A DNA stretch of 64,000 nt, from positions 228,213 to 292,212 of the forward strand of contig JAJSSI010000017.1 in assembly GCA_031841125.1 (NCBI GenBank). Direction: 5' to 3'. Below the pieces are notes generated by a model. The model had not been told where the DNA came from. It worked only from the letters and a program-made list of their open reading frames with translations, and did not search any database. Shown in pieces: positions 17,943 through 55,931 of the stretch (its first letter is position 1; every line of letters begins with the position of its first letter). The translations under genes were made by a program, and so were the position numbers. This DNA comes from Acanthococcus lagerstroemiae (lineage: Eukaryota > Arthropoda > Insecta > Hemiptera > Eriococcidae).

Positions 17943-18020
17943 CCTTTTCGCTACCGCTGACACTTATGTGTGTCGGAATGAAAATTCGAAAATGAACGAT
18001 TTTGCTCGTGTCTTATCGAC
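17943..18020 (+). mobile_element. Left-end relic of the Fanzor element
   Basis: About 78 bases starting CCTTTTCGCTACCGCTGACA match the left end of the Fanzor element (46625 down to about 46550, minus strand) with only a few differences. The match ends after CTTATCGAC. No nuclease sequence follows. It is a solo left end placed just past the stop codon of the membrane-protein gene, in the opposite orientation to the full element. Confidence 0.85.
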
Positions 18021-31549: not shown

Positions 31550-32242
31550 ATGGCGAGCTACGATATTTTTCCGTTCAACGTCGATTATTTTGAAAATAGC
31601 AACAACAACGACGACGACATAATACCATCGTTTAGCCATTACGATACCTGGGAATCGTTGTTGTTCTTGGCCTCGACCGTGTATTCGACGAAATTGAACC
31701 CAACGTACGACGCGACGTGGCTCGACGTATTGTTACGTATGATCGCGCGAATATTTAGACTAGATTCTTTCGAATATCGAGTAACGAATATACGTTTACT
31801 CGAGCCCGTTTGGATAATTGCGAATTCTTTTATCGTCTCGTTACCCGTTTTATCGGACTATCTCAATAGTAAAGTGCATCGGAGAGAACGACGAGACACG
31901 ATCATAACGGGTTTCGATATTTTTGCCTCCGTTCAAGCCGTCAATCGTTATAATAAACGCGCGTTTCGGCGACGAAACAAAAATAACAGCTGCGACGGAA
32001 TCAACGGCGGTGATTTCGGCAATAACGAGAATGTCGAAAAAACCCCGTACACCAGAGAAGAATACGTCGTCGTTATCATGCTGATGCGTTGCGCTTACGC
32101 CGCGCGTCATTTGCATAAACATTTTCTCGCCACGGGATGCAATTCTTTGAAGGAAATCGACTCGTTGGACTACAATCATCATTATAAATTTCCTCCCGTT
32201 ACTTTCGCCTATAATAGCGGCGATAAAGACTCTGACGACGAC

Positions 32243-32278
<36 letters not shown>

Positions 32279-32692
32279 GACGCTGATGATACTGGTAAAG
32301 ATAATGATAATAATGACAACGATAAAGCTAATGAAGACGAGGAAGATAACAACTATAACGGATATAATTGTAAAAATGAAAAAAATAATCGGAATAAAAA
32401 TAAATCGAATAAAATCGGCGATAATAAATTGAACGAGAACAAGCTTGACGACGAGCACGATGATCCTTATTTATCCTATCGTTGGAAATCTCTTCATGAG
32501 AAAAAACCAAAACAATTTGTGGTATACAAGAAACGCGGATCGCAAAAAAATAAATCATCCGATGCTTTTTCTTCGACGAGAACAACGACTTTTGGCGATT
32601 CGTCGAAAAAACGTAATAGACGAGAACAAGGACGACGACGACGAATCGAGTCGCCGTCAATTTTAGATTCCGATTCGTCAGATGATTATTAG
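31550..32692 (+). CDS. Unknown protein with acidic tail
   Basis: This 380-residue protein is ordered over about residues 25-225, with several hydrophobic helices (WESLLFLASTVYS, PVWIIANSFIVSLPVL, YVVVIMLMRCAYAARHL). A pure Asp run (GAT/GAC repeats near 32235-32285), an Asn/Lys-rich stretch and a Ser/Asp end follow. The helices are moderately hydrophobic and may be buried rather than membrane-spanning. The function is unknown. Its TAG is followed at once by the inverted-repeat end of a Fanzor relic. Confidence 0.55.
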
Positions 32693-32861
32693 CCCTTTCG
32701 CTACCGCGCGACGCGCGAACGATAGCCGAGAGTTACGAATTCCGAACGAATCGTTCGAAATTCCGAGAGACCGACAAATTGATCTCTCGCTATCGTGTTA
32801 ACGCTATGCGTTGTTTTTTTCGTTGCTACTGCTGCTGCTGCCGCGACGGCGGTGACGTTAG
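32693..32861 (-). mobile_element. Right-end relic of the Fanzor element
   Basis: The sequence starts CCCTTTCGCTACCGCG and follows the Fanzor right end (43487 onward) through both hairpins and the GTTAACGCTA block, with scattered substitutions. The match fades near 32861 in the CTG-repeat region that encodes the C-terminal Ala run in the intact gene. No nuclease motif remains. It abuts the TAG of the preceding gene. Confidence 0.88.
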
Positions 32862-33609: not shown

Positions 33610-35601
33610 ATGACGACTCCGGCTAGGCTGAAATCTTTGATGACCGAAGCAGCGGCTGCGGCGACGATAACACAACGCTATACGAAACGACGGCACGCTC
33701 GTCGATCGACGAACGAGAAAGATGACGAAGAGTCGTCATTGGGGCATAATGTACAAAATGAAATTGAATTTTTATCCGAATTGGATAGAGAATTGATTAT
33801 TGGCGATATCGACAACGATGATGATGATGATGATAACAATAACGCGTCGCCGAAATTGAAAAAAGTTTTGACGCAAAAATCGATTCGATTATTCGATTCG
33901 ATGCCGACATTGGCCGAGCAACAGAAACGAGCTCAACGCGCTTTGTGTGGCGATGGCGACGACGACACAACGGCCAGCAGCGGCGCCTTATTGACAAAAA
34001 CACAAGTAATGGCGATAGACGCGCGCAAATCGAATGAAATTCGAAATAAAACTCGTAAACAGCTCGACGCTCACGTGGCTAGAACAAATTTTCAACGTTC
34101 CAAACGATATTTATCCGAACGAGTATTGAATTCGATCGCCGACAAAATACCCGATGATTATAAACGAGTGCTCGTGCGTTGGACGGGAATTTCAGCGGTG
34201 GCAGCTGCATCAGCAGCAGCAGCGCGTACTATAGATATGGAACGACCACAACGTAACGTAAATTTTCGATTTCGTAATCATCGTCGTCGTCGTGATTATC
34301 ATGATCGTGAAGTACCTACGGATTCCGCTGTCGTCGGCGCAACTACCACGATTCAAAATAATTTCGATAAATATTATTATAAAGGCGACGAAAATGTCAA
34401 CGACGATGGTGACGGCGATAATAATGATGGTGGTGGCGATGTTGATGAAAAAGACCAAAATGCAAAAGATTCCAATAGGGACGATACCGATACCAACGAT
34501 AAATCGTCGTCGTCGTTTTTGCTACCGGAAATGCTGACGAAAACGATTACGCGACTCAAATTACTCGACGAACCGAATTACGTGCGTCGTTTTTACAGTC
34601 TCATCGCTTATTTCAAAATTTCGAATTTAGCCTTTTCCACGATTATCGTGTATCTGCGTAAATTACGTCTCTTCGGTATATTCGGGCCGAAAGGACGCGC
34701 TTTATTACGCCGATTTCGTCTCGATCGCGCCGCATACGAGCGTGACGCGCACACGCGACTCGTCGACGATCGTTCGTATACGCGATACGTCAAATATCTC
34801 AAAAATAATTTTAGCTCGTACACGGCACCTCTGCTGATGGTCTACTATAGCGGATTGCGGAACGTCGAAGTGCGCCAACTGACGAATCGTTCGCTGCAGC
34901 AATTGAGCGAACAACGGCCATTCGTTACGGACGTGATGCGCAAACGATCCAAACAATCGACGCTAGAACCGTATCGTACTTGGTCGCCGATATACACGGG
35001 ACAATTTAATCGGTTTATCGCGTGCCTGTGTGTCTTATACGAAGGCAAATTAACGAGTTACACGAAACACGGGGTCGTGACGAAACTTTTCGATTTTACG
35101 TCGCACACCACGTTGCCGGCTCGTATGCGCAGCGAGTACTACAAAGCGACGGGAAAAATGTTGCCGTACGGTTTTGGCGTACACGGCAATCGCACGACGA
35201 CCGCCACTATAGCCTACGACAAAACGCACGACATTCATTTTGTGAATCGTTTTCTCGGACACAAGTGTTTGCGCACGACCGAACGTTACATCAAGCCGAA
35301 ATTGTCGCTGATGGAGCGCCAATTCGATCGAATCATCGACGACAGTTTTAACGTGGTGTTTCGACACTTTGACGAAGCGCTAATAAAACGCGGACTGGCG
35401 ATAAACGACGACGAGGATTACGCCGCCGCGACGACGATATCGGCATCGTCGCCGTTATCGCGCGAACCATCGCAAGATCAACGTCGAACACGTGCTACGG
35501 AATCGAACGTGGCTCGTAATTTTGAGCCGTGTCTATTGCCGGGATTGTCGACGGCCAGCAACAACATCGACGACGACGACGCTGAAAATGATTTCGAATA
35601 A
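33610..35601 (+). CDS. vlf-1: Tyrosine recombinase (VLF-1/integrase family)
   Basis: This 663-residue protein has a C-terminal tyrosine-recombinase domain with the full catalytic set visible: Arg417 in YSGLRNVEVRQL, His525 and Arg528 in HGNRTTTATIAY, His551 in FLGHK and the nucleophile Tyr560 in TERYIKP. In baculoviruses VLF-1 is a structural, packaging and very-late-expression protein of this fold; nudiviruses also encode a separate integrase, and I cannot tell which this is. An N-terminal SAM-like DNA-binding region probably covers about 310-400. Residues 1-300 contain Asp/Asn and Ala inserts. The family usually has about 350-400 residues. Confidence 0.8.
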   Translation: MTTPARLKSLMTEAAAAATITQRYTKRRHARRSTNEKDDEESSLGHNVQNEIEFLSELDRELIIGDIDNDDDDDDNNNASPKLKKVLTQKSIRLFDSMPTLAEQQKRAQRALCGDGDDDTTASSGALLTKTQVMAIDARKSNEIRNKTRKQLDAHVARTNFQRSKRYLSERVLNSIADKIPDDYKRVLVRWTGISAVAAASAAAARTIDMERPQRNVNFRFRNHRRRRDYHDREVPTDSAVVGATTTIQNNFDKYYYKGDENVNDDGDGDNNDGGGDVDEKDQNAKDSNRDDTDTNDKSSSSFLLPEMLTKTITRLKLLDEPNYVRRFYSLIAYFKISNLAFSTIIVYLRKLRLFGIFGPKGRALLRRFRLDRAAYERDAHTRLVDDRSYTRYVKYLKNNFSSYTAPLLMVYYSGLRNVEVRQLTNRSLQQLSEQRPFVTDVMRKRSKQSTLEPYRTWSPIYTGQFNRFIACLCVLYEGKLTSYTKHGVVTKLFDFTSHTTLPARMRSEYYKATGKMLPYGFGVHGNRTTTATIAYDKTHDIHFVNRFLGHKCLRTTERYIKPKLSLMERQFDRIIDDSFNVVFRHFDEALIKRGLAINDDEDYAAATTISASSPLSREPSQDQRRTRATESNVARNFEPCLLPGLSTASNNIDDDDAENDFE

Positions 35602-40275: not shown

Positions 40276-40327
40276 TATTTCGATCGTAAAAACTCGGGTT
40301 ATAACGGTTGGACAGGAAATATAACAA

Positions 40328-40380
40328 CTCTTTCGCTACCGCGTAATACATGAACGATAGCCGAGAGTTACCGAACGAAT
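40328..40380 (-). mobile_element. Short right-end relic of the Fanzor element
   Basis: About 53 bases match the Fanzor right end: CTCTTTCGCTACCGCG, then GAACGATAGCCGAGAGTTAC with a small deletion before CCGAACGAAT. Only the terminal repeat and part of the first hairpin remain. It lies between the 40275 gene and the RING gene's promoter. Confidence 0.75.
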
Positions 40381-40492
40381 CCCCCGAATGGCGAACCGTT
40401 TTTACTCGTTCGATATATGAACACGTACGCGTAGTAGGGGAATCATATATGCGAGATCACGATTTTTTCACTTTTTTTATGTCATCGCGTTG

Positions 40493-40608: not shown

Positions 40609-43344
40609 ATGGCGCGAAGTCAACTATTTCGATCTCGAGCATTCATCGTGATTGATTCGGATTCAAACGACGACGACGACGACAACGATCGTATAACAAC
40701 GGATACGCGAATGGGAGTTTTTAAAAAAACTATTCTCGACGTTCCGTCGAATAATTCTAAATTTGTATTTTCTACTCAAGTTCGGCAAATACCGTCGTCG
40801 TCGTCGTTGTCGCCGTCCTCGTTACCGGTATCGATAACATTGACGTCTTTGGCATCGTCCTCAACGTCGTTGTCGTCGTCGTCAACATCACCGTCGATAC
40901 AATTATCGACATCGTCGTCGTCACCGCCGCCGACTACATCTTCGGCGATACAATTATCGGCGACGTCATCGTCGACAACTTTACCATTGACGATAAATTC
41001 ATCGTCGTTGTCGCCGTCTCAAGTATCAAACACCAATCGAATACAATCAAACGCCTCGTTAAAAAGACGTCGTCGTGCCGATAGTAGTAGTATTGACAAT
41101 CGCCGCCGCCGCCGTCGTCGTTCTAGCCAAGTGATTCATCGACACGAGCGTAATAACGCCGACAACGACGAGGAAAATTACGAAAACGCGTCTTTTGAAA
41201 AATTTGATCGCGGCGATCGTTTGTGGGTGCCAACATCGAGTCAACGTCGTTTTATAGACGAAAATCGAAATACTTTTACTTCTTCCATTATCGACGATAC
41301 GACACTTTTATTGTCGCTGTCGACGACAACCAACGAAGATTCGTCTCGAAGATCCAATAAAAGAGCCGCGTATCATAAAGCCACGGCCGCTATAAGGGCG
41401 ACGATGGAAGAGCAGCAGCAACAACAACACGAAGTGTATCACCGAGCACCACCTCGGCGACAACAACGGCAATCGTCGACGACGACATCATCATTTTTGC
41501 AACCAGCGCCGCCCACATCACAATCCTTTTCATCGAATCAATCGGTAGAGTCGACGACTACAACGGTAGGGACGCCACAACAGGAATCGGCAACGACGAT
41601 ATCTCGACCATGGTTAACGAATTTACGCGAATCGTCGTTCTTGTCGTCTCGATTTTTGTCATTGCCGCGACATTACGAATCGCAGCAGCGATTGTTCGAT
41701 GACTCGACCTTGGTACCGTTTCCGCCAACGGCATTATCGCACGAACAACCACCCGAAATAATTGAAGAAACGGCAACATCCTCGTCACAATCATTATCGC
41801 CGCCATCGTCATCATTGTCGTCGTCGTCGTCGTCGCCATCGCAACAGCATCGAGTAATTTCACCCGTTTTAGGAGGAAGACGAAGACTACAATTGAAATC
41901 GTTACGTCGACACGCGGATACTCAAAATTACTTGAAAACCCAATCGTTGTCGAATAATGCGGCATCTTCGTCGTCATCGGGAATGTTAGCAGTTGCATCG
42001 ATATCGAACAATTTGCGTAGGATCGACGACGGCGTAGACGCAAATAACGATAGTGTTGAAAATGCTATCGACAATTATCGTAATAATAGCAACATCAACG
42101 GAAATCATAATCAGGACGAGGACGAGGACGACGACGACGAGGAAGACGAAGAATTTTATAAAGAAGAGGATATTTGCAATTATGCGCGAAACAATAAAAG
42201 AATCGACGATCGACGCGGTAATAATATCGACGACGATTACGATGAAAAAATATTATTAAACTTTGCGGATCGTGTGCGTTCGAATATCGAAGCGGCCAAA
42301 GATTACGACAACGATAATGACCCCAATGATGATAAAACAATCGATCATTCGGGTTTGAAATGGACAAACGATATCGCTTACAAAGAATATAAAACGACCA
42401 TGAAAAAATGTTTAAAAATTATCGATAAATTAAATAATCGTATGAATCGAATAAAAATTTTATACGACGATATCGATCGCGTTAAAAACACCGACGACGT
42501 CGACCGTTATAAATGTAATTGCGATATTTGCGACGGAAATCAGAAAGAAGAGCGAGAAAGATTGCCGAAATATTATAATTTTAATAAATTTCCATTAAAA
42601 ACGCCGCAAAGCGAAGAAATTATGACCAATCTGGCTAAAGATTTAGAATATCGACTCGCGCATATCCAACGAAACCAGATCAAAAAATTACCGTCGTCAA
42701 TTTCGCCATCATCATCATTGTCGTCGTCGTCGTCATCATCATCATCGTCATCATCATCGGCAATGGTTGATGACTCGTTAAAATCGTCTCATTTATCGAT
42801 GACAAAACCCCTATCGTCGTCGTCGTCGTCGACTTTATCGTCGATTTACGAACCGTTATTACGTAAAAGACGAATTGTTTTACGTAAAATGAAAAATTTG
42901 CACAAACGGTACGTGTCTTACATCAGTATGAACGACGCGTGTTTGGATATGAATAAAACATTGGATCGAATGATCGATACGAACGAATTAATGAAACAAA
43001 ATTCGTTTACGACATGTAGCGCGCGTTACTTTACAAACAGTCATACGCGGTCGACGCGCCAACTCAAAGAATTATCGGAAAAAATTGTACGTTTATTCGT
43101 TACGATGAAAAACCATCATAATGACAATAATAACGACGCCGCTAATCTCAATTTTGATAATCGTCTATTGCCGCTAGACAACGGTATGCATTTTATTTGT
43201 AGTATTTGCGTGAGTTGGCGCGAACGAGCGATGATTTGCCGATTTTGTTTTCACATTTTATGCCGAAAATGCGCCGATCGATGCGTCGACTCGTGTCCGC
43301 ATTGTCGCAATAAAAATTATCTCAAAGAAGCCATACACGATTGA
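40609..43344 (+). CDS. RING-finger protein with long disordered N-terminus
   Basis: This 911-residue protein ends in a C3HC4-type RING: CSICVSWRERAMICRFCFHILCRKC followed by a second Cys pair in CVDSCPHC, spaced as in RING-HC ubiquitin ligases. A helical region (about 590-830, with a CNCDIC motif) precedes it. The first ~500 residues are Ser/Thr/Pro/Gln-rich with Asp/Asn tracts. There are no BIR domains, so it is not a standard baculovirus IAP. A viral E3 ligase acting on host or viral proteins is the natural inference. The ATG at 40609 follows the TATA/TCAGT promoter by about 80 bases. Confidence 0.7.
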   Translation: MARSQLFRSRAFIVIDSDSNDDDDDNDRITTDTRMGVFKKTILDVPSNNSKFVFSTQVRQIPSSSSLSPSSLPVSITLTSLASSSTSLSSSSTSPSIQLSTSSSSPPPTTSSAIQLSATSSSTTLPLTINSSSLSPSQVSNTNRIQSNASLKRRRRADSSSIDNRRRRRRRSSQVIHRHERNNADNDEENYENASFEKFDRGDRLWVPTSSQRRFIDENRNTFTSSIIDDTTLLLSLSTTTNEDSSRRSNKRAAYHKATAAIRATMEEQQQQQHEVYHRAPPRRQQRQSSTTTSSFLQPAPPTSQSFSSNQSVESTTTTVGTPQQESATTISRPWLTNLRESSFLSSRFLSLPRHYESQQRLFDDSTLVPFPPTALSHEQPPEIIEETATSSSQSLSPPSSSLSSSSSSPSQQHRVISPVLGGRRRLQLKSLRRHADTQNYLKTQSLSNNAASSSSSGMLAVASISNNLRRIDDGVDANNDSVENAIDNYRNNSNINGNHNQDEDEDDDDEEDEEFYKEEDICNYARNNKRIDDRRGNNIDDDYDEKILLNFADRVRSNIEAAKDYDNDNDPNDDKTIDHSGLKWTNDIAYKEYKTTMKKCLKIIDKLNNRMNRIKILYDDIDRVKNTDDVDRYKCNCDICDGNQKEERERLPKYYNFNKFPLKTPQSEEIMTNLAKDLEYRLAHIQRNQIKKLPSSISPSSSLSSSSSSSSSSSSSAMVDDSLKSSHLSMTKPLSSSSSSTLSSIYEPLLRKRRIVLRKMKNLHKRYVSYISMNDACLDMNKTLDRMIDTNELMKQNSFTTCSARYFTNSHTRSTRQLKELSEKIVRLFVTMKNHHNDNNNDAANLNFDNRLLPLDNGMHFICSICVSWRERAMICRFCFHILCRKCADRCVDSCPHCRNKNYLKEAIHD

Positions 43345-43494
43345 TGAAAATTGTTAGACGAACGACTACAACCCATTTCTGTGTTATCTCTTCGCTATTC
43401 GTTGTAATATGCGAAAAAAAGGAGTATTGAATAAAAAAATGAACATATAATCACGATGTCGTCTTTATTTTTACCGATTAGAATAACCCTTTCG

Positions 43495-46350
43495 CTACCG
43501 CACGACGAGCGAACGATAGCCGAGAGTTACGAATTCCGAACGAATCGTTCGAAATTCCGAGAGATCAACAAACTGATCTCTCGATATCGCGTTAACGCTA
43601 TTTATAGTAGTTCTTGTTGTTGTTTTCGTTGCTGCTGCTGCTGCTGCGGTGACGACATTAGCGGTAGCGCGATAATCGACGAGACCCAGCGCAACGAGGA
43701 TAATGTTGCGAGCGGCGTTGACGTCGCGATTCCACACGATCGCGCAATTTGGGCAAATTTGAAATCGGTGGTAGGCGCAACGTCCTCGTCGTCGTTGTCG
43801 TAGTCGTAGTCGTTGATGATGCTTCTTTATCGCATTTATCGTCGTTTCGCCGCTCCTTTCCGCTTCATCATCTTCAACGTTGTCGTCGTCGTCATTGCTA
43901 TTGTTACCACCGTATACGATTTTGGGTGGTAGCGACATTTCCGTGACGTTACATCTCGAGCACATTTTCGTCGTCTTGTATTCGTCGACGTCGACCACGT
44001 CGTAGAGTCGTGCTCGTCGCCATCGGGCAAACGCTCGTCGCAGCCGCTCGACGGCCGGTCGTTGTTTTCCGCCGTACGACACGCCCTGCCTCAACGATCC
44101 GTCGCCAAAACACACGAGAGTTTTATTCGTCGTCGACGACGACGACGACGGCGATTGCGACGGCGGCACGTAATAATTGACCAGTCGGTCTTCGGCGCGT
44201 CTGCGCTCGATGTAGCCGTCCCACTTGGACCAGCGGCAATAGTTGCGTTTCGCGCGATACACTTCGGCGCGTCTATCGAAAAACAGCAACCGATAGTGCG
44301 TGTAATCCTCGATGTCGCGAAAGTTCGCGGCGATTTTGTGACTTAGTGTATTACTACCACCACTACTACGAGGAGACGTTGTCGTCGTTGCTACCGCCAC
44401 ACTATCGAGATTGTCGAAGTTGACGGCGACGTCGTTGTCGTTGTTATCGGTATTATCGCGACCGATAACCACGGCAGCGACAACGGTACGACGATAAGCC
44501 TCCTCGTCGGCGCGCAACTTCTTGTCCAGCGTATAGAGTTTACGTTTGCGCGCGCGTTCTCCGCAATATTGTTGCCGATACGTGCCGGTACGAAGCACGC
44601 TATTGGTCTCTATTATTCGTCGTCGTTGTGGTTGTAGCGATAACGTCGCGACATCGTCGTCGTCGTTGTCGTTCTTATCCGTAGTGTTAACGGCAGTAAC
44701 GTCGTTGTCGTCGTCATCGATGATGATCGATCGATCGATCGTGCAAGCACCCATGTAATTCACGACGCCCGGATCCACGCCGACGAATCGCGTGTATTTG
44801 TCAAAGTCGATCCGTCGAGATACCGACGGTGCTGCTGCTGCTGCTGCCGATGATGATATCGGTGCCGGTAACGTCGACGGATTTCTAGGCGTCGTCATCT
44901 TCTTCGATCGCGTGTTTTTCGATATTTTTCGTTTTTTCGCCGATCGATAATCGATATCGTAGTCGTCGTTGTCGTCGTCGTTGTCGCCATTATTGTTACC
45001 ATCATCAACGCCAACGTTGTCGTTGCGACGTCGACGCCGACGTATCAATTTTACGGAACAATCGATACCGTTCGTGCTGAAAGACATCGCGAAACGCGTA
45101 CGTCCGGGCTGTTCGATGATCGGTAGTAGGGCAGCGGTGCCGCCGCCTTTCTCGCTGTTGCGCTCGTCGTCGTCGTACGACAACGCGCCGTAACGCCGCC
45201 GCTTGTCGAGTCGGCAATACGTCCACCAGTATTCGGGCGAACGACGACGAAATTCCACGAGGTTACCGCCGCACGTTAGCGGCACGCCGCTTGCGCGCAA
45301 CAGCTCGTAGAACGCGCTCGTATTGTATAGGACGTGTTTGCGCTGCGACGAGAAGACGGGAAACAGATTGAACGAGCGCAGACCCGACGAGGCGAAGTAA
45401 CGGCCGAGCGCGAACGAGAACGGCACTAGCGACCACCAGTCGTTGTTCTTGTTGAATTTCGATAGTTTCGTGCCGTAGGCGAAACCGAAAGTCGTCCAAA
45501 AGTCGACGGTTTCGCGGCGCGCCGGACCGACAAAGTCCGGCGCGAATAATTCTTCGCGCACGATCGATCTCCATTGCCGTTTATCGACGACGACGGCGGT
45601 AGAGATGTCACCGTTATCGTTGCTATCACGACCGTCGCCGCCGCTCCATTTGTGCGCGAAATACTTGACGACGCGCGCGTACAAGTGCACGAGCACGCAA
45701 TTCTTCATCGCCGTCTCGTGTTGCTCGGCGGCATTTTGCACGAGGTACGTGCGATGCGTGCCGTCGTAAAATTTCCCGGGATCCGAGCGTAACGCGAAAT
45801 ACGATTCGTCCGGCGGCAAACGTTCGCGTTTCTGTCGTTTTCCCTGCAAATGATAGTACGCGTCGAGCAAATGACCGCGCGTATACGTCGTCACCAGTAG
45901 TTGGCGGTAGCGATGGTCGTCGTCGCCGTCGCTATTAGCGGAGCCGCTAACGTCTTCGTTGCCGCCGGCGATAGTAGTGGCGGCGGCGGCAACTGCTGCC
46001 GTGGTAGTGGCGGCGGCGTACAAAAGTCGAGCAAAACGATGATTCCAGTAGAGCGACGCCTCCTCCATGAGGGAGGACACTTCCAGCACGTCGGCCTCGA
46101 TGCGTCGACGTATCGCCTCGTCGGCGATGAATTTGCGCAAACCCATTTTCACGGTACACGTTCGTTCTTCGTATTTTTTGTTCGTCGACGAAGATGGCGA
46201 TGACGACGACGTCGACGATGGTGATAACCGGGACACGAATCGATCCTTTTGACGTAGAATACGTTTGGCGCATTTCGACGAGGACGCTCGAGCGTGATCG
46301 TTGCCGCCGCACGCTTTGCAGCCGGGACGCCGCGCGTCATTGCCGAGCAT
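43495..46350 (-). CDS. fanzor: Fanzor (eukaryotic TnpB-like) RNA-guided nuclease
   Basis: Fanzor proteins are TnpB relatives of eukaryotes and their viruses that use an RNA transcribed from their element's end to cut DNA. This 951-residue protein shows RuvC-I in FVGVDPGVVNY (about 521), a GDGSLRQG segment (about 752), DEYKTTKMCSRCN (about 790; its Glu is a candidate for the relocated catalytic Glu of Fanzors), a second zinc pair in ICPNCAIVW and RuvC-III in NRDVNAARN (about 875). Low-complexity inserts split the RuvC parts and the zinc ribbon. A Cys/His knuckle (CKACGGNDH...C) opens the protein. The start is the first ATG after the left-end TATA/TCAGT promoter. Confidence 0.85.
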   Translation of the reverse strand: MLGNDARRPGCKACGGNDHARASSSKCAKRILRQKDRFVSRLSPSSTSSSSPSSSTNKKYEERTCTVKMGLRKFIADEAIRRRIEADVLEVSSLMEEASLYWNHRFARLLYAAATTTAAVAAAATTIAGGNEDVSGSANSDGDDDHRYRQLLVTTYTRGHLLDAYYHLQGKRQKRERLPPDESYFALRSDPGKFYDGTHRTYLVQNAAEQHETAMKNCVLVHLYARVVKYFAHKWSGGDGRDSNDNGDISTAVVVDKRQWRSIVREELFAPDFVGPARRETVDFWTTFGFAYGTKLSKFNKNNDWWSLVPFSFALGRYFASSGLRSFNLFPVFSSQRKHVLYNTSAFYELLRASGVPLTCGGNLVEFRRRSPEYWWTYCRLDKRRRYGALSYDDDERNSEKGGGTAALLPIIEQPGRTRFAMSFSTNGIDCSVKLIRRRRRRNDNVGVDDGNNNGDNDDDNDDYDIDYRSAKKRKISKNTRSKKMTTPRNPSTLPAPISSSAAAAAAPSVSRRIDFDKYTRFVGVDPGVVNYMGACTIDRSIIIDDDDNDVTAVNTTDKNDNDDDDVATLSLQPQRRRIIETNSVLRTGTYRQQYCGERARKRKLYTLDKKLRADEEAYRRTVVAAVVIGRDNTDNNDNDVAVNFDNLDSVAVATTTTSPRSSGGSNTLSHKIAANFRDIEDYTHYRLLFFDRRAEVYRAKRNYCRWSKWDGYIERRRAEDRLVNYYVPPSQSPSSSSSTTNKTLVCFGDGSLRQGVSYGGKQRPAVERLRRAFARWRRARLYDVVDVDEYKTTKMCSRCNVTEMSLPPKIVYGGNNSNDDDDNVEDDEAERSGETTINAIKKHHQRLRLRQRRRGRCAYHRFQICPNCAIVWNRDVNAARNIILVALGLVDYRATANVVTAAAAAATKTTTRTTINSVNAISRDQFVDLSEFRTIRSEFVTLGYRSLVVR
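43531..43582 (-). ncRNA. Candidate guide-RNA (omega-RNA-like) scaffold hairpins
   Basis: Two adjacent inverted repeats lie near the Fanzor 3' end. One pairs 43531-43543 with 43545-43557 (12 of 13 positions); the other pairs 43559-43567 with 43574-43582 (9 of 9, 6-base loop). They overlap the last ~30 codons of the nuclease and end about 44 bases from the element end. The relics at 53654 and 32693 keep them while most of the coding sequence is gone. A transcript running out through the element end would carry these stems followed by flanking DNA as guide, as in TnpB systems. Transcription is not shown by the sequence. Confidence 0.6.
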
Positions 46351-46446
46351 GTGCTATAGGACCGTTTTTCGCGTTTATAATCGTCGTCGTCGACGGCGAG
46401 GTTATCATACGATGAAAAGATCGAGAGCGACGAAGTAATAATCAGA

Positions 46447-46487
46447 ACTGAGGGTTATCGCTGCTCGGACGCTATATATATATATAG
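46447..46487 (-). promoter_or_regulatory. Early promoter (TATA + TCAGT) of the Fanzor gene
   Basis: On the minus strand a CTATATATATATATAG run (46487-46472) is followed by TCAGT at 46451-46447, about 100 bases before the Fanzor ATG. The same block order occurs before the ribonucleotide reductase gene. Confidence 0.7.
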
Positions 46488-46609
46488 GGAGGGAGCGAAC
46501 GAAATCTTTCTTTCTTGGAATTCTCGTTCCGAGAAAAAAACATATACACGTCGATAAGGCACGAGCAAAATCGTTCGTTTTCGAATTTTCGTTCCGACAC
46601 ACATACGTG

Positions 46610-48208
46610 TCAGCGGTAGCGAAAAGAATAATTTTTTACAAATGATACGCAATTGACATATTTTTTACAGAATCTATATTCGGCCAAGTATTCGATTATA
46701 CGTGGATCGTAGACATTGGTGTCGTAATCGAACTCGTTTCTATATAATGGTTTAACTTTTGTTACCGTCGCTTCGACCGAAGACGATCGAGGAATTGACT
46801 TGGGGGATGAAGCTGTTATTGTGGCCTTTTTCTCGTTCGAAACAATTCCGTCGTTTACAATCGACGACGACGAAGTCGTTTTCGATGGCGACGACCAAGA
46901 CGATAAATTGGGCAAAACAACTAGACGCGAATCGAGAGAATTTATAATTACGAGTATCGTATAATCGGTATCGGCCAATTCGTCGATAATATCCATGGTT
47001 AATATATAAAATTTATCGTTGATGTAACTTATATTTCCGTTTGCCGACGAAGATCCGTTGGATTCTGTTGGTTTTTTATCGTCTTCGCGAATTGCGATCG
47101 AATCGGACATTTTGAATTCGATAAAACGTTTTTCACCTACATCGTCGTACTCGTTCGGGGCGAATTGCAAAATTTTCACGAGTTTATCGATCATCGTCGT
47201 GCGCGTATTGTAATTACACAATACATCGTGGTCGTCGACGACGCGTTTTATGGCGATTGAAAAATGATTCAAATGCAGTACTATACGTTTTCGCGTTGTC
47301 GATTCGACACGGCGATGTTGGCGATACGTAATGGCGTCGTTAACGCGACGTTCGTCTCTTTTTTTTCCAATATCCTTTCGAATAAAATCTCTAATGACTC
47401 GATCTTGATTCTTTTTATTACCATCATCATTATCATTGGGCAGAGTGGCATAATTTCCATCCGATTCATTCGCGACTTCACGAAATTCGAAATTAGTTGC
47501 GACATCGGCGTTCTCATCGTCGCCGTCGTTGATAAATTCCAGAATTACACGTTTAATTTTCAGCATACATAAGGGAAACACGTCTTCGACGAATTCCTCG
47601 CGATGTCGATGATTTTCATCGATAGACGATCGTCCGTGTTGTCGAATCGAGGACGTTAATGGCGATGGTGTTGCGATGGTATTTTGCAACGCAGTAGCCA
47701 TTAATCCGGCGAAATTTTTCAACGATTCGATCAAATAACGTATACCGTATGTCGCGCGTTTCATATTAACCAATAAAACGTCGTCCATGTCGTAGGTTAT
47801 ACATTTTTTCGTCAATTCGAAAGTAATTAAAATTTTTTTAGAGGATTTACCATCATCAGTATGATTGGCAATGTTGTCGCCGTTTATTTTATCACCGTGT
47901 TTATTATTATTAACGCCACCGTTGGTATTATCATTTCGATCGTTGTTTTTCGAATTATTATCGACACCGACGACGACGCCGTCGTTGGCGTTATTTTTGA
48001 CAATAGAATCACGATCGAGCGCCCCGGCGAGACTACGTTCGGCAGTTTTTGCATCGGTTACGATCGATTCGACATCCAGAAGCGACGACGAAAGATCGAC
48101 AGTCGCTCTGTTGTCCGGATTATTATGATATTGATAATGTTTTGTATAAATCAAAATACTCAATACGCAACCGAATATAGTTCCGTACAAAGATTCATTT
48201 ACCGCCAT
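46610..48208 (-). CDS. HAD-motif protein, candidate 38K nucleocapsid factor
   Basis: This 532-residue protein contains ITYDMDDVLLVNM near residue 140, which looks like the hhhhDxDx(T/V) motif I of HAD/CTD-type phosphatases. 38K (Ac98), a core gene needed for nucleocapsid assembly, is the lineage's protein of this type, usually about 320 residues. Later ordered regions include KRIVLHLNHFSIAIKRVV (about 310) and YTILVIINSLDSRLVVLP (about 415). An N-terminal hydrophobic stretch (about 8-22) is unexpected for 38K, so the assignment is tentative. The last four sense codons and the TGA lie inside the left terminal repeat of the Fanzor element. Confidence 0.45.
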   Translation of the reverse strand: MAVNESLYGTIFGCVLSILIYTKHYQYHNNPDNRATVDLSSSLLDVESIVTDAKTAERSLAGALDRDSIVKNNANDGVVVGVDNNSKNNDRNDNTNGGVNNNKHGDKINGDNIANHTDDGKSSKKILITFELTKKCITYDMDDVLLVNMKRATYGIRYLIESLKNFAGLMATALQNTIATPSPLTSSIRQHGRSSIDENHRHREEFVEDVFPLCMLKIKRVILEFINDGDDENADVATNFEFREVANESDGNYATLPNDNDDGNKKNQDRVIRDFIRKDIGKKRDERRVNDAITYRQHRRVESTTRKRIVLHLNHFSIAIKRVVDDHDVLCNYNTRTTMIDKLVKILQFAPNEYDDVGEKRFIEFKMSDSIAIREDDKKPTESNGSSSANGNISYINDKFYILTMDIIDELADTDYTILVIINSLDSRLVVLPNLSSWSSPSKTTSSSSIVNDGIVSNEKKATITASSPKSIPRSSSVEATVTKVKPLYRNEFDYDTNVYDPRIIEYLAEYRFCKKYVNCVSFVKNYSFRYR

Positions 48209-51841: not shown

Positions 51842-52702
51842 ATGTGTCGGAGGAAAAAAATGGAAAAAGAGAGTAGAATTCGAAACGCGTCATCATTGTC
51901 GGCATCCTCATCATCACCACCATCGCTATCGTCGTTGTTGGTAACAGCAACAACCACGGAATCGCAATCACCGTTGTCGATCATGATTATGTCGCCGTTG
52001 TCGTTTATTTCATCGTTGCCAGTGTCGTTGCCGCGAATAGATCGTGTGCGAAAAATAGACGATCGGTCTACCGATAAGACGGTGCATTTGTCGGAGAAAC
52101 GTTCGGCGACGCTACTTCGTCGTTTTCCACGATACGTGATACGCGAATGTCGATCAAAACGCGAAGCGCCTCTCGTTAACGAATGTTTCGCCGACATGGG
52201 CGTTACGTGGCGTGATTTGATTCACGAATCGACGTACCCCATACGCGAAGCCATTTTCGAAGATCTAGTATGGCCTTATCCCCGTTTCGCGCGATCAAAT
52301 TTACCGGTGGCGAATCGGCAAATCGTGGTCGAACGTTTTAACGCGCGTGCCTACCTGGATCGAAAAAATCACAATATAGTATACGCGTCGTTATTCGCCT
52401 ATCCGAAAATAGATTTCATATTTGAATTTGTAACGCGAGACGATATTGACGCGTGTAAAAAATATAGGAAATGGCTCGTGAATGATAATAACGACAACGA
52501 CAGCGACAATCGTGAAAATGATCATAATGATATCGACGACGACGACGACGACGAAATAAATGTTGATATTATTACCGATAATAGAATAAATAATCGCGAC
52601 GTTGGCAACTACGATCACGATGGCAAACAAGAGGAAATGATTTCTGTCGAAAAACAAAACGACGAAATAGTAAAATTTATAAAATTGATCGAGTATGTAT
52701 GA
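51842..52702 (+). CDS. Unknown protein with Ser-rich start and acidic tail
   Basis: The frame encodes up to 286 residues. The first ~80 are Ser/Pro-rich and the last ~70 Asp/Asn/Glu-rich. The ordered middle (about 85-210) has YVIRECRSKREAPLVNECF, WRDLIHESTYPIREAIFEDLVWPYPRF and IVYASLFAYPKIDFIFEF. No family is recognised. The first ATG (51842) sits right after a TATA run used by the opposite strand, so a later in-frame start (51860 or in the Ser-rich part) is possible. Its end overlaps the esterase start by eight bases, suggesting coupled genes. Confidence 0.55.
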   Translation: MCRRKKMEKESRIRNASSLSASSSSPPSLSSLLVTATTTESQSPLSIMIMSPLSFISSLPVSLPRIDRVRKIDDRSTDKTVHLSEKRSATLLRRFPRYVIRECRSKREAPLVNECFADMGVTWRDLIHESTYPIREAIFEDLVWPYPRFARSNLPVANRQIVVERFNARAYLDRKNHNIVYASLFAYPKIDFIFEFVTRDDIDACKKYRKWLVNDNNDNDSDNRENDHNDIDDDDDDEINVDIITDNRINNRDVGNYDHDGKQEEMISVEKQNDEIVKFIKLIEYV

Positions 52703-53762
52703 AACACTAACGTTGATATTGATCGATCTCGCGCTTTTGTTTAGTTTCGTTTTTTTACTGATTCGGCCTCTGTTTGTAAAATGGATTTTATCCTACACGA
52801 TAAAATTACCGAGAGGAGATCGACCACGTGCTCTGGTTCGTGTCGAAGAATTTTTAGTCGATAGTTTTAAGACGACATTGTATATGAATAAAAAAGACGA
52901 CATCCTCGATCCCGGCAACTACATCGACGCAAAAAAGCACAACTACGCCGTCGATTCGTCTACTCCTTCTTCGACGACGACGACTTACAATCTGGTGGTT
53001 TTTGTGCATGGTTTTATGTTTCTCCTGACCGACGCGAGTGCGACTTATTTATTTTTAAACGAACTCACGGCGCATTTGCCGAATCACGATTATGTGACGT
53101 TTGATTACGGCATTAGATTCGGATACACGTTATGCGACATGGTTCGACACACCTATAAAGTTATACGCGCTTGTCGCGCGTTTCGAAACTATACAAATCT
53201 ATACGGCATAGGCGTGTCTGCTGGCGCGCTCGTTTGCGGCGCCATGCAACAATGCGAATTTAATCGCAGCGTCGATCGTGAAATGCGAGTCCGACTACAC
53301 GATGATGACGCACGAGTGGAATACAAGTTCGAGTGTTTCATCACCTTGTGCGGTCTTCTCAATACAAACTTTCAACATCGATACTTGAATCTATTATTTA
53401 ACGCGTACTTGTCACGCGGTACACCGGCGCAACAATATTACACGTGTTACGGCCTCGATCATCTGCCAAAACTTGTCGTGAGCGCGCGCGACGATTTCCT
53501 GTCGGCACAATCAACGGCGTTTACGATTTCAGAAAAATGCGAATCTCTCGTATTTCCAAACGACGTCGATTTGCCGCACGCGTTTCCATTATTCCCGAAT
53601 TTCAAGCAAACCAACGAATGCGTCAAGCGTATAGCCAAATTCATCGAGGATAACCCTTTCGCTACCGCGCGACGCGCGAATGATAGCCGAGAGTTACGAA
53701 TTCCGAACGAATCGTTCGGAATTCCGAGAGACCGACAAATTGATCTCTCGCTATCGCGTTAA
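52695..53762 (+). CDS. Alpha/beta-hydrolase (lipase/esterase-like)
   Basis: This 355-residue protein has an N-terminal hydrophobic segment (about 4-28), then an alpha/beta-hydrolase fold. Visible are VVFVHGFMF (oxyanion-loop HG), the nucleophile elbow GVSAG (Ser175), a likely acid in VVSARDDFLS and a likely His in DVDLPHAFPLF. Nudiviruses are known to carry an esterase/lipase-like gene. It probably acts on lipid or ester substrates at membranes, anchored by the N-terminal segment. The last ~36 residues (from NPFATARR) are encoded by the right end of a Fanzor relic that starts at 53654, so the natural C-terminus has been replaced. Confidence 0.75.
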   Translation: MYETLTLILIDLALLFSFVFLLIRPLFVKWILSYTIKLPRGDRPRALVRVEEFLVDSFKTTLYMNKKDDILDPGNYIDAKKHNYAVDSSTPSSTTTTYNLVVFVHGFMFLLTDASATYLFLNELTAHLPNHDYVTFDYGIRFGYTLCDMVRHTYKVIRACRAFRNYTNLYGIGVSAGALVCGAMQQCEFNRSVDREMRVRLHDDDARVEYKFECFITLCGLLNTNFQHRYLNLLFNAYLSRGTPAQQYYTCYGLDHLPKLVVSARDDFLSAQSTAFTISEKCESLVFPNDVDLPHAFPLFPNFKQTNECVKRIAKFIEDNPFATARRANDSRELRIPNESFGIPRDRQIDLSLSR

Positions 53763-53946
53763 CGCTATTTGTTATTTTTTTCGTAGCTACCGCTGCTGCC
53801 GCGGCGACATTAGCGGTGGCGCGATAATCGACGAGATCCAGCGCAACGAGGATAATGTTACGAGCGGCGTTGACGTCGCGATTCCACACGATCGCGCAAT
53901 TTGGGCAAATTTGAAATCGGTGGTAGGCGCAACGTCCTCGTCCTCG
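53654..53946 (-). mobile_element. 5'-truncated Fanzor copy (right end plus last ~90 codons)
   Basis: From CCCTTTCGCTACCGCG this 293-base piece follows the right end of the intact element base for base with few changes, through both hairpins, the NRDVNAARN codons and the zinc-pair codons. It breaks off at the CGTCCTCG block (equivalent to about 43797). A 75-codon minus-strand frame (53889-53662) still reads the nuclease C-terminus. Its outer end lies inside the esterase gene. It cannot encode an active nuclease, but the guide-scaffold hairpins are intact. Confidence 0.92.
53662..53889 (-). pseudogene. Fanzor C-terminal fragment
   Basis: Seventy-five codons correspond to the last ~80 residues of the intact Fanzor, starting at the RuvC-III Asp motif (NRDVNAARN) and including the SEFRTIRSEFVTLGY tail. 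The rest of the nuclease is missing. The Ala/Thr-run length differs from the intact copy. Confidence 0.85.
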
Positions 53947-54107
53947 TAAAATGATGATATTTATAGAAAAAAAAAAAATTTATTTTTTGTATCGTAATTA
54001 CGTCGTTTACGCGCATGATCTCGAAATGAAGAAAAAAAAGAAAATAATTCAATAACGTAAAATTTATTTTATTGTCTGTACTATACATCGGGTTCGACTT
54101 GCCGGAA

Positions 54108-55735: not shown

Positions 55736-55931
55736 CCGGTTCGCTATTGCGCGACGCGCGAACGATAGTCGAATTACAAATTCCGAACAAATCTTTCGAA
55801 ACCCCGAGAAACCAACAGCCTGATCTCTCGCTATACATTAACGCTTGTTGTCGTCGCAGTCGTTGTTTTCGTTGCCGTTGCGACGGAGTTGGCGCGATAA
55901 TTGACAACAAGGGTAATGCGCAACGTCGTAG
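55736..55931 (-). mobile_element. Decayed, internally deleted Fanzor end
   Basis: The piece starts CGGTTCGCTATTGCGCG and shows eroded versions of the Fanzor right-end blocks (GAACGATAG, AATTCCGAAC, TGATCTCTCG, TTAACGCT). It then matches the GCGATAATTGAC and GCGCAACGTCGT blocks that are further apart in the intact gene. It looks like an old copy with an internal deletion, resembling a miniature non-autonomous element. The stems are weakened by substitutions. Confidence 0.7.

Follow-up and report, generated by a model that had tools for sequence, protein, structure and literature searches.

A probable transposase-less Fanzor1-type transposon in four intact copies on an arthropod-type DNA virus contig

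The contig C17 carries a 3,141 bp element that is likely to be a DNA transposon encoding no transposase itself, belonging to the short-repeat kind with TTAN targets known from insect viruses, with a Fanzor1-type nuclease as its sole gene and kept by a proposed guide-directed retention. At the level of sequence, comparison of the copies shows defined ends, a target motif, four intact copies, purifying selection and a predicted 3' RNA. Having four intact, same-ended copies on one contig makes the ends, target motif and predicted scaffold readable by comparison, and it makes persistence by transposition testable against retention of sites by the nuclease itself. With this element, a group of RNA-guided nucleases that apparently move from one insect virus to another gains a divergent multi-copy member. 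The window analysed here is the 64,000-nucleotide stretch C17:228213-292212 (contig JAJSSI010000017.1, 296,212 bp in total) of a 658-Mb assembly; positions refer to the window unless a contig or locus is named. The window copy comprises the following features.

46628-46631, minus strand: target site, 5' copy, TTAT in gene orientation (copy comparison; TTAN type as described in PMC3627910)
43487-46627, minus strand: Fanzor transposon of 3,141 bp; C17 has four full copies, this one included (ends common to all four)
46614-46627, minus strand: 5' terminal inverted repeat, 14 bases, TCTTTTCGCTACCG in gene orientation (comparison of copies)
43495-46350, minus strand: Fanzor reading frame, 951 aa, no internal stop (Pfam, alignments)
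43483-43600, minus strand: predicted guide RNA (reRNA/omegaRNA) scaffold with three main stems, overlapping the last ~35 codons (fold)
43487-43500, minus strand: 3' terminal inverted repeat, 14 bases, CGGTAGCGAAAGGG in gene orientation (comparison of copies)
43483-43486, minus strand: target site, 3' copy, TTAT in gene orientation (predicted pairing inside the guide-RNA scaffold)

Viral setting

Judged by its gene content, C17 is well supported as sequence of a large arthropod-type DNA virus. ORFs near the Fanzor element match per os infectivity factor 2 (PF04631, E 1.1e-22) and 'Per os infectivity' (PF05092, E 2.2e-14; presumably PIF-1) in Pfam, and others around it encode a ribonucleotide reductase small chain and a family-18 glycosyl hydrolase; together these bear out the viral genome setting proposed by the first-pass annotation. 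The setting is well supported because PIF genes are described as marking arthropod-specific large DNA viruses (PMC10271883). Scans of a viral contig collection found no relative of either the neighbouring PIF-2 or the Fanzor protein, which is weak evidence of rarity since this virus group may be absent from the collection. Two viral contigs beside C17, C162 and C166, are near-identical to each other (99.1-99.5% in compared stretches), and on this comparison the virus assembly is apparently split or contains variants. The window also contains a tyrosine-recombinase-like ORF at 33610-35601 with a weak, below-cut-off match to phage integrase (PF00589, E 6.5e-5).

The Fanzor protein and its relatives

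The protein is a probable RNA-guided DNA-cutting enzyme of the Fanzor type. Its full-length frame, as first proposed, stays open over all 951 codons. Pfam PF07282 (Cas12f1-like TNB) matches with E 5.6e-6 and 26.9 bits, just over the cut-off of 26.3, and a PHROG 'transposase' family matches with E 1.4e-5; NCBIfam matches all fall below cut-off. Alignments place the catalytic and zinc residues at D526, E790, C797/C800/C866/C869 and D876. RuvC-I reads G-V-D526-P-G, with D526 taken from the alignments, and RuvC-III contains R875-D876 within NRDVNAARNI. The relocated glutamate, E790, lies six residues before C797, the first zinc-ribbon cysteine, and the old RuvC-II position reads LVCFGDGSL, with no glutamate. 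The PF07282 match and these aligned residues support the initial assignment to the TnpB/Fanzor family, relocated glutamate and zinc ribbon included. An earlier DPG in the four copies, at D190 in the window copy, is a chance match; the alignments place the RuvC-I motif at D526.

The family pattern given in PMC3627910 for Fanzor/TnpB proteins, D-X(125,275)-[TS][TS]XX-C4 zinc finger-X(5,50)-RD, is present as D526, T793 T794, C797/C800/C866/C869 and R875 D876, with spacings of 266 and 5 and a long zinc-finger loop (65 residues). PMC10711439 describes Fanzor as distinguished from TnpB by DPG at RuvC-I and a glutamate six residues before the first CxxC; this combination (D526-P-G, E790-x6-C797, no glutamate at RuvC-II) is found in all four copies and in the database proteins P0001-P0003, and is not found in P0004. 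The regular expressions DPGx(120,160)E and CxxCx(12,18)CxxC given in that source do not match, the spacings being 261 and 65 residues in the window Fanzor and 178 and 39 in P0001, because inserts lengthen both; the residues themselves are kept.

P0001-P0004 are unnamed database proteins and the closest relatives found by protein searches, one of which scored the 7,999 candidates sharing most words with the query. P0001 is 33% identical to the window Fanzor (BLASTP) and matches PF07282 clearly (E 1.9e-10); P0002 is 77% identical to P0001. The catalytic residues of the window Fanzor are the same in P0001 and P0002 and are kept in all four full copies. P0003 is without the R of RD, and P0004 shows none of the Fanzor motifs, which are missing from its second half. 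P0001-P0003 differ from the window Fanzor in lacking its long low-complexity inserts. An N-terminal CxxCx4H motif, which we take to be a zinc knuckle, is shared with P0001. Two structure predictions were poor (mean pLDDT 37.5 and 40.7), and a PDB profile search reached no Fanzor, the best match being LaTranC (E 0.006).

Intact copies, selection and relics

A protein search of the assembly itself with the Fanzor sequence lists 14 matches, including four full copies on the 296-kb C17, all with open frames.

C17:271710-274562: full copy (window)
C17:165903-168737: full copy, 88% protein identity to the window copy
C17:111811-114651: full copy, 89% protein identity to the window copy
C17:217284-220283: full copy, 89% and 87% in two matches within one 1,001-codon open frame, lengthened by the Ser tract

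The codon comparisons show purifying selection on the Fanzor protein. Pairwise dS among the four copies is 0.13-0.17 and dN/dS 0.31-0.43 over 907 ungapped codons. In the 658 codons that align to P0001, taken as the conserved core, dN/dS is 0.25, and in the other 249 codons it is 0.52. Assuming 0.07 changes per site, or about half of pairwise dS, an unconstrained copy should carry about 8 stops, and none is seen in any of the four. Indels between copies within the reading frame have lengths that are multiples of three in 111 of 119 pairwise cases, the other 8 forming four neighbouring alignment pairs. The Ser tract is encoded by a triplet repeat whose length varies among copies (L004 2340-2520, very long; L046 2335-2414), and an old relic in L046 breaks off within this repeat.

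Partial copies are found on the near-identical C162 and C166, where one piece on each contains one TGA. C17 additionally carries at least eight degraded pieces, two of them in L046 near C17:137.2 kb and 139.6 kb. The remaining six lie in the window, which agrees with the several relics noted at first pass.

17944-18020, plus strand: relic of 5' end, 95% identity
27993-28117, plus strand: relic of 5' region, pieces of 78% and 93%
32693-32861, minus strand: relic of 3' end; the adjoining target site TTAG (plus strand) holds the stop codon of ORF 31550-32692
40326-40381, minus strand: short degraded relic of 3' end, 75-79%
53654-53948, minus strand: relic of 3' end, ~295 bp, in which the predicted scaffold survives (z -4.6); the outer part encodes the C-terminus of opposite-strand ORF 52695-53762
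55736-55881, minus strand: old relic of 3' end, scaffold decayed (z -1.4)

DNA searches with each element end gave at least 13 matches for the 3' end and at least 7 for the 5' end. Among the matches listed, all are on C17, C162 and C166 except three host-contig matches of 38-40 bases, which fall in the triplet-repeat part of the query. A bias of relics towards the 3' end was considered and set aside, six 3' against two 5' relics on C17 being too few; this count takes four 3' and two 5' relics as listed, plus the 40326 piece and the old piece at C17:137.2 kb.

Several pieces adjoin other reading frames. The minus-strand neighbour ORF at 46610-48208 ends in element bases; were the flanks of the window copy joined, this ORF would still terminate after a few codons. 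A stop codon lies ~15 bases before the start of the relic at 17944. The C-terminal ~36 residues of ORF 52695-53762 are encoded by a Fanzor 3'-end relic on the opposite strand, making this a putative viral gene whose end is made of transposon sequence.

Element boundaries and target motif

Comparison of the four copies defines the ends of the element, as the first-pass annotation had expected, and sets them at 43487-46627 rather than at the 43487-46625 it had proposed. The 11-base inverted repeat it had recognised, TTTCGCTACCG at 43490-43500 with its reverse complement at 46614-46624, recurs: the same repeat bounds both ends of all four full copies, and on this ground it is more than a chance occurrence. 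Allowing one mismatch, the 11-mer has 10 matches in the window against 2.3 expected (largest of 100 shuffles, 7), and the 20-base 5' end at up to three mismatches has 2 matches against 0.00 expected. The short terminal repeats span 14 positions in all four copies, with the inner 11 exact at both ends, and the TAG stop codon at 43495-43497 sits within the 3' repeat.

The target motif was read from the bases just outside these ends. In gene orientation, the 5' ends of the four copies read TTAT before TCTTTTCG, TGAA before CCTTTTCG, GTAA before CCTTTTCG and TTAG before TCTTTTCG, and at the 3' ends GCGAAAGGG is followed by TTAT, TTAA, TTAA and CTAT. Further 3' ends give TTAT (L005 and 53650), CTAA, TCAA, TTGT and TGAA, and one further 5' end gives TTAT. 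TTA occupies the target position in three of the five 5' ends and five of the ten 3' ends compared, whereas its frequency in the window is 0.018. The two flanks of one copy resemble each other most at a length of 4 bases (identity 0.75; lengths 2, 3 and 5-9 give 0.12-0.45). Flanks of different copies are 0.65 identical at 4 bases, near the within-copy value, and a preferred target motif is therefore shown more firmly than a true duplication. Within copies the tetramers match at 4, 3, 3 and 2 of 4 positions and are identical only at the window copy, where they read ATAA on the plus strand at 43483-43486 and 46628-46631. A common 4-base TTAN-type target motif is certain; of the four copies, only the one in the window shows an exact duplication.

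The GAATAA repeat reported at first pass on both sides of the element is real at the window copy, where it extends to seven bases (AGAATAA at 43480-43486 and 46625-46631), and is absent at the other three copies. Four of these bases are the TTAN-type site, and the other three are the same as the three outermost bases of the element itself; because the copies give a 4-base site and the remaining bases coincide in this way, the element is taken as 43487-46627. AGAATAA duplication as a general rule was rejected, being found at one of four copies.

Exact matches to a 13-base 5'-end pattern number 15 across the genome, of which 10 lie on host contigs and 5 on C17. With up to one mismatch allowed, the pattern occurs 254 and 258 times against 375 and 362 for the reversed control; being no commoner than this control, its host matches are at chance level. 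The joined flanks of copy L004 gave no uninterrupted match in the two loci tried as empty sites (C162/C166), where the match broke off four bases before the joint.

Predicted RNA at the 3' end

A strong three-stem RNA is predicted at the 3' end of the element. The last 118 bases (43483-43600, minus strand) fold with a minimum free energy of -53.1 kcal/mol (z -6.2), a stability that none of 200 shuffles reached. For six other well-kept 3' ends z lies between -3.5 and -5.0, and three control stretches of the element give z -0.3, -0.4 and -2.3. The consensus fold has three main stems and takes in the terminal repeat and target site. One stem pairs UAACUCU with AGGGUUA, so that the target-site UUA pairs with an invariant UAA; all three target-site pairs form in five of eight sequences. 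The consensus is, in outline, the minimum-energy fold for L001, L002, L003 and 53650 (relic 53654-53948), whereas three of the seven well-kept 3' ends (L004, L005 and 32689) prefer a different one, keeping two stems and pairing the remainder otherwise. Covariation speaks neither for nor against the fold, since none of 42 pairs has a two-sided change (368 of 500 shuffles pair as well). Rfam has no match in window 43000-47000.

Because the reading frame stops only within the terminal repeat, it runs through most of the predicted scaffold. The overlap would be about 35 codons here, and such overlap is known at 17 aa in GtFz1, as described in PMC10432273. Synonymous divergence is 0.056 in the last 34 codons against 0.135 in the rest, a value that 10 of 52 windows equal or undercut. 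Ten predicted guides were compared with 15 loci: at 0-1 mismatches each fits its own locus or a near-identical twin contig only, and at 2-3 mismatches most of the matches fall in simple repeats or in the repeat next to L004.

Comparison with described elements

Insect-virus Fanzor1 elements flanked by TTAN were already described in 2013 (PMC3627910), and the C17 element joins this known kind as a divergent addition. The five such families of Bao and Jurka (2013) are reported to have 4-base TTAN duplications, 13-base terminal repeats and no assignable superfamily (PMC3627910). The C17 element appears to fit this account: as in HVav-1, SFav-1, PUgv-1, HAgv-1 and HAmn-1, a Fanzor-type protein and TTAN sites occur in a large dsDNA insect virus, with short terminal inverted repeats (13 bases there, 14 here) and, in the elements as described, no transposase (PMC3627910). 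Compared by description, it differs in its four intact copies on one contig and its long Ser and Asp/Asn inserts.

A close parallel for the predicted RNA is the Fanzor1 reRNA of Spodoptera frugiperda ascovirus 1a, reported as a three-stem predicted 3'-end RNA with the terminal repeat and target site in its scaffold and as extending ~15 nt beyond, with expression data (PMC10711439). On C17 the scaffold is predicted, in contrast to the expression data reported there, and the coding frame crosses most of it. SpuFz1/SPu-1 of Spizellomyces punctatus is likewise described as a Fanzor1 in an inverted-repeat element with gene-less standalone 'ghost' loci, but with a TA target and 33-base repeats, and its ghosts resemble both ends, whereas the C17 relics keep one (PMC10432273, PMC3627910). 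Among the open-licence papers listed we found no report of Fanzor in the virus of C17 and no paper on Fanzor in a nudivirus; an ant-virus paper (PMC12548425) has 0 occurrences of Fanzor or TnpB.

Proposed retention and alternative readings

The retention model comes from work on TnpB. Applied to C17, a transposase supplied in trans would move the element between TTAN sites; a scan of 34 of the 53 window ORFs (150 aa or more) showed none. The 3'-end transcript would act as guide RNA, with the downstream flank, below 43483, as the guide. Fanzor would then cut, beside the TTAN motif, copies of that site from which the element had been excised; repair templated by a sister viral genome would restore the element, which could in this way be kept and spread through the viral population.

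It is unlikely that the copies have instead become viral genes, with Fanzor kept as a homing or anti-competitor nuclease, and every copy maintained by selection, after transposition stopped. The four copies are nearly equally divergent (dS 0.13-0.17) yet intact, which is odd with recent serial transposition, but this divergence could equally arise while the element was mobile, or in other genomes before arrival. Relics show that copies are lost, and among the 15 loci no predicted guide fits, at up to one mismatch, anything but its own locus or the near-identical twin contig. A related proposal, which we regard as distinctly unlikely, is a domesticated Fanzor: the four intact, equally diverged copies and the gene-less 3' ends at 53654-53948 and 32693-32861, both of which keep the predicted guide-RNA fold, would make up a scattered set of guides that the viral nuclease serves in trans, either to protect insertion sites or to shut out co-infecting genomes without them, with most of the scaffold also translated, up to the stop in the terminal repeat.

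The transposon reading with TTAN targets differs from a Tc1/mariner-type element with a TA duplication, as in SPu-1, only in the bases assigned to the element. TA does lie four bases outside TTTCG at most ends, symmetrically on both sides, but TTAN explains the same TA, places CCC/CCT within the repeat and matches the insect-virus families as published (PMC3627910); with no mariner transposase seen in the scanned ORFs (34 of 53 in the window), the TA reading is improbable. A transposon with a 7-base duplication is very improbable, for although AGAATAA flanks the window copy on both sides, three of its seven bases coincide with the element's own end and the same register at the other copies reads TGAACCT/TTAAATC, GTAACCT/TTAATCG and TTAGTCT/CTATCAA (gene orientation).

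Fanzor pieces outside the intact elements

A degraded C-terminal Fanzor piece (34-38% identity, two stops) is present on host contig C9 (59.8 Mb) at C9:58216850 (L047 4851-5150). It has no recognisable ends, and nine kb around it match nine viral loci in the Fanzor alone. On C162/C166, a repeat with a period of ~510 bp lies between two Fanzor pieces in opposite orientation (L048, C166:26000-35900; L031/L032, C162), and the pieces break off at this repeat. A part of it, about 250 bp long, turns up again very near the 3' end of copy L004 (L004 4520-4751).
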